From Neisseriales bacterium (GTDB taxonomy: Bacteria > Pseudomonadota > Gammaproteobacteria > Burkholderiales > UBA11063), in contig SSGX01000021.1 in assembly GCA_008017155.1 (NCBI GenBank), positions 1 to 64,000 of the forward strand: a stretch of DNA of 64,000 nt, given 5' to 3'. The stretch's first letter is position 1; each line of letters opens with the position of its first letter. This document shows, in pieces, positions 37,856 to 40,283 of the stretch. The translations under genes and the position numbers were made by a program. The notes beneath the pieces were generated by a model. It searched no databases, had not been told where the DNA came from, and saw nothing but the letters and a program-made list of their open reading frames with translations.

Positions 37856-39130
37856 CTATTTATTTGCTAGGACTGCCGCAACCTGACGGATATCAGCATC
37901 AGTCTCAACCAGTTTTACTGGTTTATCAAGTAAAGTTTGTAATTGTGGTGCAACTGGTAAGATATTACCAATAATCGGCTCAATAATAGTTTCAAATTTA
38001 CATGGATCAGCAGTAGCTGCAATTATCCATGGCTTATCATCAAGCTTTTTACGGGCAAAATATCCGGTCGCCGTATGTGGACATACCACATAATTAAATT
38101 TCTGATTAACTTCAGTAATAATTTCTTTGATTTCTTCATCGTTAACGCTAAAGGCTTTAACATTTGCGCGGAATGTTTCAGGAGTATTATATAAATAGCT
38201 CAGACGCTCAAAATTACTTGGATTTCCAACATCCATTGCATTCGCAATTGTTGCAATACTCTTACGTGGCTCAAATTTACCATTATCTAGATAGTCTGAG
38301 ATTACCCGGTTGGCATTGGTCGCAAGACTAATTTCACGAATTGGGAAGCCCATTGCTTTTGCCCAAAAAGCTGCTGTAGAATTACCAACATTACCAGTTG
38401 GGATAATATATCCAGCTTTTTCACCATGTTTTAGGAAAAATTGCCAGCTGGTATAAGCGTAGTAAGTAAGTTGTGGCAGTAATCGAGCAATATTAATACT
38501 ATTCGCACTACTCAAATGTGCACGGCTAGTAAACCATTCATCGCTAAATGCTTGTTTAACAATTTTTTGGCAATCATCAAAAGTTCCATTAACCGCAACT
38601 GAGAGAATGTTTTCGCCCCAACAAGTAATTTGTTGTTCCTGACGTTTGGAAATTTGTCCTTTCGGGAACATTACCACAACTTCAATATTTGGCTTTTGAT
38701 AAAAAGCACCAGCAACCGCAGAACCTGTATCTCCAGAAGTTGCAACGATAATTGTAGTTTTTCGTTCTTTAGATAAACGAGTCATACATTCAGCAAGAAA
38801 CCTAGCACCAAAATCCTTGAATGACAGAGTTGGTCCCTGAAATAATTCCATTATATAGGTGTTCGCGTTTAATTCACGTACTGGTAATGGAAAATTAAAG
38901 GCATTTCGACAGATGTCAGATAGCTGTGATTCAAGCTGATCGCCTTTGAAATAATCCGCAAGAATTTTTGCCGCAAATTCTGGATAGCTTAATTTACTAT
39001 CTAGATCAGCAATATTTATCTGCGGGAAATATTCTGGGACAAATAAGCCACCATCTTCCGCTAAGCCTTGTAGGATTGCTGCGCTTACACTTTTATGATT
39101 ATTTTTATCACGAGTACTATAAAAAAACAT
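37856..39130 (-). CDS. thrC: Threonine synthase
   Basis: A 424-residue PLP enzyme: FYSTRDKNNHKSVSAAILQG, FQGPTLSFKDFGARFL with the PLP Lys (SFKD), ATSGDTGSAVAGAF and IIPTGNVGNSTAAFWAKAMG. It turns O-phosphohomoserine into threonine. It is the last gene of thrA-thrB-thrC but is separated from thrB by 193 bp carrying a palindromic element. Confidence 0.95.
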   Translation of the reverse strand: MFFYSTRDKNNHKSVSAAILQGLAEDGGLFVPEYFPQINIADLDSKLSYPEFAAKILADYFKGDQLESQLSDICRNAFNFPLPVRELNANTYIMELFQGPTLSFKDFGARFLAECMTRLSKERKTTIIVATSGDTGSAVAGAFYQKPNIEVVVMFPKGQISKRQEQQITCWGENILSVAVNGTFDDCQKIVKQAFSDEWFTSRAHLSSANSINIARLLPQLTYYAYTSWQFFLKHGEKAGYIIPTGNVGNSTAAFWAKAMGFPIREISLATNANRVISDYLDNGKFEPRKSIATIANAMDVGNPSNFERLSYLYNTPETFRANVKAFSVNDEEIKEIITEVNQKFNYVVCPHTATGYFARKKLDDKPWIIAATADPCKFETIIEPIIGNILPVAPQLQTLLDKPVKLVETDADIRQVAAVLANK

Positions 39131-39189
39131 GATTTATTCCTGTATTAATTAAGCCGGGATTTTCGGCTAAAATAACTTATTCACTGGTG

Positions 39190-39313
39190 TTATCTACTTA
39201 TTTAATCTAAGAGGTATAAAATGAATTTTGACGATTTTGCGGACAGATTCGTTGTTTTGAATCAGTCCGCCATGAGGAAAAATTGTTTTATATCTCTTAA
39301 GTAGATTATCTAC
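39190..39313. repeat. MITE-like palindromic element flanked by 8-bp direct repeats
   Basis: TTATCTAC occurs at 39190-39197 and 39306-39313 and flanks a 108-bp imperfect palindrome. Outer arms are 39208-39229 and 39278-39299 (22 positions; 3 of 4 differences are G-U-compatible in plus-strand RNA), inner arms GCGGACAGATTC at 39239-39250 and GAATCAGTCCGC at 39259-39270 (one mismatch). A 27-codon frame with AGAGG before its ATG spans 39221-39304. The layout resembles a miniature inverted-repeat transposable element with target duplication. Confidence 0.55.
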
Positions 39314-39323
39314 CTAACATCAA

Positions 39324-40283
39324 CTATTTATCTTCAATTATATATGCACCATTTGGATTTATTGGTGAAATCCATTGGTCTGCTTCAATGCCATGTTCAT
39401 TAAACATGGCTAACATCGCTAGAGTTACTTTTTCAGCATTTGTTTTACTATCGCAAAACGCTAGCATACTTGGACCTGATCCTGAAAAAGTCGCTGTAAT
39501 TGCACCACTTTGAAGAGCGGCTTCTTTTACTTGATAATAGCCAGTTACTAGATTAGCTCTTTGTGGTTCAATGATTAAATCTTGCATTGAACGACGTAAT
39601 AATTCAATATCTTTTTGATAAAACGCACAAATTGCAGCACCAAGCTGAGCTGATTGCTCAACGTATTTTTTTAGTGGCACTTCAGGTTTTAAGATACCGC
39701 GGGCACTTTTGGTTTCTACTTGAAGGTGTGGGTGAATTATTACGCAATATAGTTCTGGATAAGGTAGATTAATGATCTCCATTGGCGCAAGGCTACGAAT
39801 TAGAGTTATCCCACCAAAAACGCATGGGGCTACATTATCAGCATGACGTCCGCCAGATGCAATTTCTTCACCATAAAGAGCATATTCTACCAATTTCTCT
39901 CGCGAAACTGGATTACTCAAAAAGCCATTTAGAGCAACTACCGCTGCAACGGCAGAGGCTGCTGAACCACCCATTCCTGAGCCCATTGCTATACCTTTAT
40001 CAATCTGCATTGAAAAGCCACAACTAATACCAAGCTCTTCACACATCTTCTGTAAGGCATATGAGGCAGTATTTTTATTTGCTTCAAGAGGTAATCCAGT
40101 AATTGAATTAATCTTCTCGATAACAATCTGTCCATCATCACGTTTAGTGAGTGTAACTTTATCTCCAACTGCATCAAGAGCTAAGCCAAGAATGTCAAAG
40201 CCAACCCCAAGATTGGCACTAGTTGCAGGGGCAAATGCAGTTAGCTTATTAACCCCTTCTTTTAATTTAACGTTACTCATCAT
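39324..40283 (-). CDS. thrB: Homoserine kinase, GHMP type
   Basis: A 319-residue GHMP kinase. FAPATSANLGVGFDILGLAL is motif 1, GIAMGSGMGGSAASAVAAVV the glycine-rich ATP loop, and ATFSGSGPSMLAF motif 3. It phosphorylates homoserine. The gene follows thrA directly (1 bp). Many Betaproteobacteria use the unrelated APH-like homoserine kinase instead, so the GHMP type is a mild oddity. Confidence 0.95.
   Translation of the reverse strand: MMSNVKLKEGVNKLTAFAPATSANLGVGFDILGLALDAVGDKVTLTKRDDGQIVIEKINSITGLPLEANKNTASYALQKMCEELGISCGFSMQIDKGIAMGSGMGGSAASAVAAVVALNGFLSNPVSREKLVEYALYGEEIASGGRHADNVAPCVFGGITLIRSLAPMEIINLPYPELYCVIIHPHLQVETKSARGILKPEVPLKKYVEQSAQLGAAICAFYQKDIELLRRSMQDLIIEPQRANLVTGYYQVKEAALQSGAITATFSGSGPSMLAFCDSKTNAEKVTLAMLAMFNEHGIEADQWISPINPNGAYIIEDK

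Follow-up and report, generated by a model that had tools for sequence, protein, structure and literature searches.

The window, by which we mean the whole 64,000 nt stretch that was analysed, is C4:1-64000 of a 2.47 Mb genome in 63 contigs. Two of its minus-strand ORFs, which we take, in agreement with the earlier note, to be thrB and thrC, are separated by 193 bp. The first (39324-40283) would encode a homoserine kinase of 319 aa and the second (37856-39130) a threonine synthase of 424 aa, and their orthologues lie side by side in the genus. As the earlier note proposed, most of the gap is accounted for by a palindromic element, with thrB transcriptionally upstream of it and thrC downstream; 46 nt remain when the element and one copy of its flanking duplication are subtracted.

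The element occupies 39184-39323 (140 bp, plus strand). It was delimited by a covariance-model match of 142.3 bits, the window copy being one of the 13 sequences behind the model, and by global alignment to the 142 bp family consensus, to which it is 84.5% identical. That consensus comes from an alignment of 13 copies and runs from CTGATGTTACGCAC to CTGCGTAACATCAG. Terminal inverted repeats of 13 bp are present at both consensus ends (CTGATGTTACGCA...TGCGTAACATCAG), and the insertion sequences described below end alike. In the window copy the left repeat is CTGGTGTTATCTA (39184-39196, plus strand), and the right repeat (39311-39323, minus strand) reads TACCTAACATCAA on the plus strand. Immediately outside are two degraded 7 bp target-site duplications, TTATTCA (39177-39183) and CTATTTA (39324-39330), which match at 5/7 positions. 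The latter begins with the three bases of the thrB stop codon, which reads TAG on the minus strand; the thr copy lies directly behind this codon. At 140-142 bp, family members have no transposase gene, and the frame that passes through the consensus is only 46 codons.

Different limits had been proposed earlier, namely a 108 bp element between two copies of TTATCTAC that were read as 8 bp target duplications. The pair is present in the letters at 39190-39197 and 39306-39313, but both copies are internal, the left one overlapping the left terminal repeat. Alignment to other copies shows that the left TTATCTAC corresponds, with mutations, to TTACGCAC in the left end, and that the right TTATCTAC is likewise derived by mutation from TTATCTGC inside the right end. 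They are identical in only 1 of the 13 aligned copies, the window's own, and in the remaining 12 the left and right positions agree at 1 to 6 of 8. As TTATCTAC lies within the element and the pair is alike in a single copy, we reject it as the target duplication; the extent of 108 bp is replaced by 140 bp, with the degraded 7 bp duplications outside.

The strong hairpin, by contrast with these limits, was borne out. Compared with dinucleotide shuffles, 39184-39323 folds as DNA with z scores of -6.9 (plus strand) and -5.6 (minus strand) and as RNA with z scores of -7.5 and -5.4, respectively, and in each of the four cases none of 200 shuffles folded as well. The core hairpin (39239-39270) has 12 bp arms with one mismatch, as described previously (39239-39250 and 39259-39270; GCGGACAGATTC / GAATCAGTCCGC). 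A 27-codon frame with AGAGG ahead of it lies inside the element at 39221-39304 (plus strand), antisense to thrB and thrC.

Distribution and insertion sites

When 39190-39313 was used to query the genome that contains the window, eight places were returned. The earlier description of a MITE-like palindrome is supported, the palindrome is dispersed, and a single-copy sequence is excluded. A longer query run on 41 relatives, together with a covariance model for which 13 copies served as input, gave 14 distinct copies in 23 genomes of the genus, 13 of them the model's own sequences: eight in the window genome, three in G017, taken to be Aquella oligotrophica P08T, and three in G022, taken to be the Neisseriaceae MAG AWTP1-26. 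Aquella itself sits in Neisseriaceae by NCBI lineage. Model matches on the opposite strand are the same places, the element being palindromic. There was no copy among the matches listed for the 20 other genus genomes, an absence that is a lower bound, with the best 140 candidates scored per genome.

Beyond the known copies, 300 genomes of the order yielded only a 26 bp match in G272 among the matches listed (mostly two per genome), and this was taken as chance. A protein-level match in G006 was also set aside, as it was a poor alignment without the ends. Plasmid and phage collections contained no match to the element. A degenerate pattern of the core, which misses several known copies, had no exact match in viral contigs; in a contig collection from which own or near records were possibly excluded, the same pattern was found in one record, the G022 MAG.

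All eight copies in the window genome are between co-directional genes, including, besides thrB-thrC, pairs that we take to be murE-murF-like and zipA-ligA-like. By our reading, five are in the sense orientation and three antisense. Outside this genome only 2/6 copies (Aq_813k and G022_C32) have co-directional neighbours: Aq_1939k lies between convergent genes, both G022_C29 copies lie between divergent frames and the placement of Aq_2498k is ambiguous. The co-directional excess of the own copies is weak, with p values of 0.077 by gene pairs and 0.005 by intergenic bases when the window alone serves as control. The two G022_C29 copies (G022:C29:2040-2754) are diverged and in tandem, with starts 571 bp apart, and each has TAA where most other copies read TGG.

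Exact 7 bp duplications (ATAATAA, TTAATAA, TTATTGA and TCAGTAA) flank 4/14 copies. The other ten are without one; the window copy matches at 5/7 positions, and in the remaining nine the number of matching positions ranges from 1 to 6. In the 14 copies together, 62/98 flank positions match, compared with a mean of 49.8 when flanks are re-paired between copies (permutation p = 0.0004). When lengths of 3 to 12 bp were tried, exact matches were found only at 7 bp (four copies) and 4 bp (one copy).

At one site an insertion can be read base for base. The P08T copy at 1,939,107, which sits between a gene end and what looks by eye like a terminator-like hairpin, has its orthologous empty site in contig C16 of the window genome, with a single TTATTGA, and the two sequences differ by exactly the element plus one duplication. 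This was the only unbroken match when the P08T and G022 copies, together with the insertion sequences, were searched for empty sites. Searches of P08T and G022 with the flanks of seven own copies gave no clean empty site. At one of these, C63a, nothing of the element beyond its first bases is present in P08T, which suggests that this insertion is older than the split of the window species and P08T. At another, C27a, approximately 1.2 kb of other sequence lies between the flanks in P08T, and for the other five the flank searches in P08T and G022 returned no usable match. No two orthologous copies that are both intact were found.

Two of these loci have further features. C63a extends into the 3' end of a gene for a dihydroorotase-like protein, whose final codons, IDVTQISH, come from the MITE; the protein ends IKCAEL in G022, and the P08T element at that site is a short remnant. 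In P08T, a frame that is presumably adenosine-deaminase-like lies between genes presumed to be zipA-like and ligA-like (G017:C1:2580900-2583000), and at that spot the window genome has only the degraded MITE copy C27a (C27:51817-51948).

The thr locus itself was compared across the genus. A thrB match was found in 16/23 genomes, with thrC adjoining in 14 of these. Compared with 193 nt in the window, the thrB-thrC gap is 39 nt in G022 and G014, 42 nt in G011 and G002, and from -1 to 12 nt in five more distant genomes (G016, G009, G001, G010 and G015). It is 157 nt in G005 and 327 nt in G007 and G020, where it holds a short frame that begins MKK and appears secretion-signal-like by eye. P08T, whose ThrB is the most similar (97% identity), has a gap of 177 nt that is filled by a different dispersed repeat, so that it shows no empty site. 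An empty site of the kind that the earlier note had suggested looking for was found at another copy, but not at thrB-thrC. The sequence at the thr site is not conserved among relatives. The earlier note had held that conservation there would point to a regulatory structure instead of a MITE, and the shorter or differently filled gaps exclude this. P08T and the window species have different inserts, whose positions after the stop codon of thrB almost coincide, and we infer two insertions.

The P08T repeat is a member of another dispersed family, whose imperfect palindromes are approximately 120-140 bp long, with one end like GTAACTGCTCGGA and with CGGCAGTTAC near the other end. The P08T gap used as query gave 27 matches in P08T (including the query), 17 in the window genome (one of them the thr flank only) and 10 in G022, with some places counted twice.

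Insertion sequences with the same ends

When the ends were searched for in three genomes, facing pairs were found that span 1159 bp (three, in P08T) and 1068 bp (one, in G022). The P08T pairs delimit three insertion sequences of 1161 bp that share their 13 bp ends with the MITE. The related G022 insertion sequence, of 1070 bp and likewise with these ends, is partly N, and its length and frame are uncertain. The P08T transposase matches the NCBIfam model NF049921 (IS701) with 323.8 bits, the cutoff being 250, and has Pfam DDE domain matches. A relative with 69% identity is encoded in G012 by an element with the same 13 bp ends, and one with 48% identity in G054, from another family of the order, where the ends are also the same except for one mismatch at one end. 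Insertion sequences that share the ends, as sought in the earlier note, exist in relatives of the window genome.

The duplications of the six insertion sequences for which both ends are present are either 7 bp (two exact, one 6/7) or 8 bp (three exact), and the targets of this IS701-type group are TTA-n-TAA-like. Seven genomes had transposase matches at 1e-20, and duplications were tabulated for P08T, G022, G012 and G054 only. Left out of this table were a degenerate copy in G008 with ends CTGATGTTACGGA/TCCGTAACATCAG and, by eye, no clear duplication, a partial match in G004 with one end-like site, and partial matches in G043. IS701 members are known for duplications of 4 or 5 bp, and ISGka1 and ISGka2 gave 4-9 bp according to PMC8024623. 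The 7-8 bp seen here are longer than the 4-5 bp usual for the family, and within the range of those two.

In the window genome there was no transposase match at E <= 1e-20, which is not decisive as the assembly is rated 81% complete, and no facing end pair approximately 1.1 kb apart. Beyond the 13 bp ends, comparisons of the MITE with the insertion sequences revealed no significant similarity (lowest p = 0.12 in 12 comparisons). For this reason, simple loss of the interior of the insertion sequence copies seen would not give the MITE, and we rejected its origin as a plain deletion derivative of the insertion sequence in P08T, in G022 or in G012.

The element is dispersed, an insertion consists of the element plus a 7 bp duplication, and its ends coincide with those of an insertion sequence of the IS701 group. 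We consider it very probable that the element is a MITE, non-autonomous and gene-free, with 13 bp ends and a palindromic body, that was mobilized by an IS701-group transposase. The transposase would have bound the MITE ends and moved the MITE in trans, with insertion at AT-rich sites that resemble TTA-n-TAA. In the thr operon, the copy would have inserted immediately after the stop codon of thrB, parting thrB from thrC, and would have decayed since. It may now be carried as a large hairpin in thrB-thrC mRNA, and be tolerated or mildly affect processing.

Conservation of the element and competing explanations

One alternative is that the thr copy is a regulatory RNA structure conserved in the thr operon, such as an attenuator, terminator or processing site, with no mobile element involved: it folds strongly on both strands and its position is inside the operon. 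Against this, seven further copies are found elsewhere in the same genome, the gap is 39-42 nt in four relatives and holds a different insert in P08T, a search of 39000-39500 revealed neither terminator-like nor promoter-like sites, and no Rfam family reached the gathering score in 38800-39700. This explanation is very improbable, and we rejected it on the absence of the sequence from G022, G014, G011 and G002. Because the relatives examined lack the thr copy, a conserved regulatory role for it is not indicated. Still less probable is that the element is an extragenic palindrome of the REP or ERIC type that was dispersed by a different mechanism, such as transposition of single-strand DNA by a REP-associated tyrosine transposase, and that shares its ends with the insertion sequences by coincidence. 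The long hairpin and the location between genes would fit, but REP-type movement is not known to leave target duplications, whereas the MITE has 7 bp duplications and a clean empty site, and the 13 bp at its consensus ends are also those of insertion sequences whose transposase is of the DDE type.

The pattern of conservation raises a further alternative, that the MITE core is functional itself, as a small peptide (approximately 34 residues, consensus MNFDDFADWFVVLNQSAMRKNLFYISVMAYLRNI) or as a structured RNA, and is kept after insertion. If this were true, the element would scatter a working module between genes of operons. The degraded copy C27a is outside the 13-copy alignment and hence outside the conservation, covariation and codon counts, and Aq_813k was additionally left out of the region rates and the column test. 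With these left out, mismatch to the consensus is 0.082 in body and core (87/1065 cells) and 0.151 in the terminal and subterminal regions (95/630), a difference that is significant by column-level permutation (p = 0.001), although cells are not independent. A core that is better conserved than the ends is the reverse of what end-recognition alone predicts. Third codon positions hold 54/108 mismatch cells (permutation p = 0.019), but when distinct states are counted the excess is 25/60 (p = 0.11), and because several third positions pair with third positions in the hairpin, the codon rhythm may be that of the palindrome. With indels ignored, the frame is free of stops in 10/13 aligned copies, against an average of 7.1 in simulations (p = 0.08); stops occur in the other 3/13, and the ATG is kept in 8/13 and lost in 5/13. 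The frame peptide matched no Pfam or PHROGs family, and matches in PDB were only at E >= 0.28. The 27-codon frame is probably not translated. Its existence behind AGAGG, reported in the earlier note, stands; that it arose by chance, as was also proposed, is likely rather than certain given the codon rhythm and the stop counts.

The hairpin evidence is similarly divided. The consensus hairpin has 42 pairs, with 94.4% of cells pairing, compared with 31.7-51.0% when the alignment is slid. Six pairs are changed on both sides, a number reached by 14/500 shuffles, and the covariation is above that of all 500 shuffles, a score that relatedness can also yield. Further pair types are not above the shuffles (288/500 as high). 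Departures at Watson-Crick pairs are G-U in 19 cases and A-C in 15, as in strand-neutral decay, and these near-equal numbers give no sign of strand-specific RNA selection after insertion. Taken together, we judge a functional core to be unlikely. The better-conserved core and the weak codon rhythm are a residue that mobilization of a MITE by an IS701-group transposase leaves unexplained, and they offer only hints toward a peptide or RNA function.

Relationship to known elements

As far as could be seen, the element is of an ordinary kind and this MITE family is a new example of it. We found no description of the element in the open-licence PMC papers and passages retrieved on Aquella oligotrophica, on IS701 and MITEs, on IS701 and its duplications, or on MITEs and the thr operon, and in the description of Aquella oligotrophica no mention of repeats, insertion sequences, transposition, mobile elements or IS701 was found. 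The family, together with its probable source insertion sequence and a base-exact empty site, is described here for a little-studied branch of the Neisseriaceae, and duplications of 7-8 bp are documented for an IS701-type element. That two related species have the thrB-thrC gap filled by small repeats of different, unrelated families is a caution against equating a large operon gap with regulation.

The Correia elements (CREE/NEMIS) of Neisseria are likewise short MITEs in Neisseriaceae that are dispersed between genes. They have characteristic ends, occur in further sizes and generate TA duplications. PMC10969869 gives a size of 204 bp and more than 120 elements in N. gonorrhoeae, compared with the eight copies in the window genome, and reports that RNase III cleaves transcripts containing Correia elements at the terminal repeats. 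The insertion sequences of the IS701 family (NF049921 group), with 7-8 bp duplications, are autonomous, those of P08T carrying the transposase that matches NF049921. Their 13 bp ends recur on the MITE, which lacks a transposase and has no more than these ends in common with them. ERIC of the enterobacteria, also called RU-1, is a small mobile repeat for which no source transposase is known. It is similar in length (127 bp for RU-1, PMC2759123). MITEAba12, whose host is Acinetobacter, is likewise derived from an IS, non-autonomous and distributed across a bacterial family (PMC6382973).
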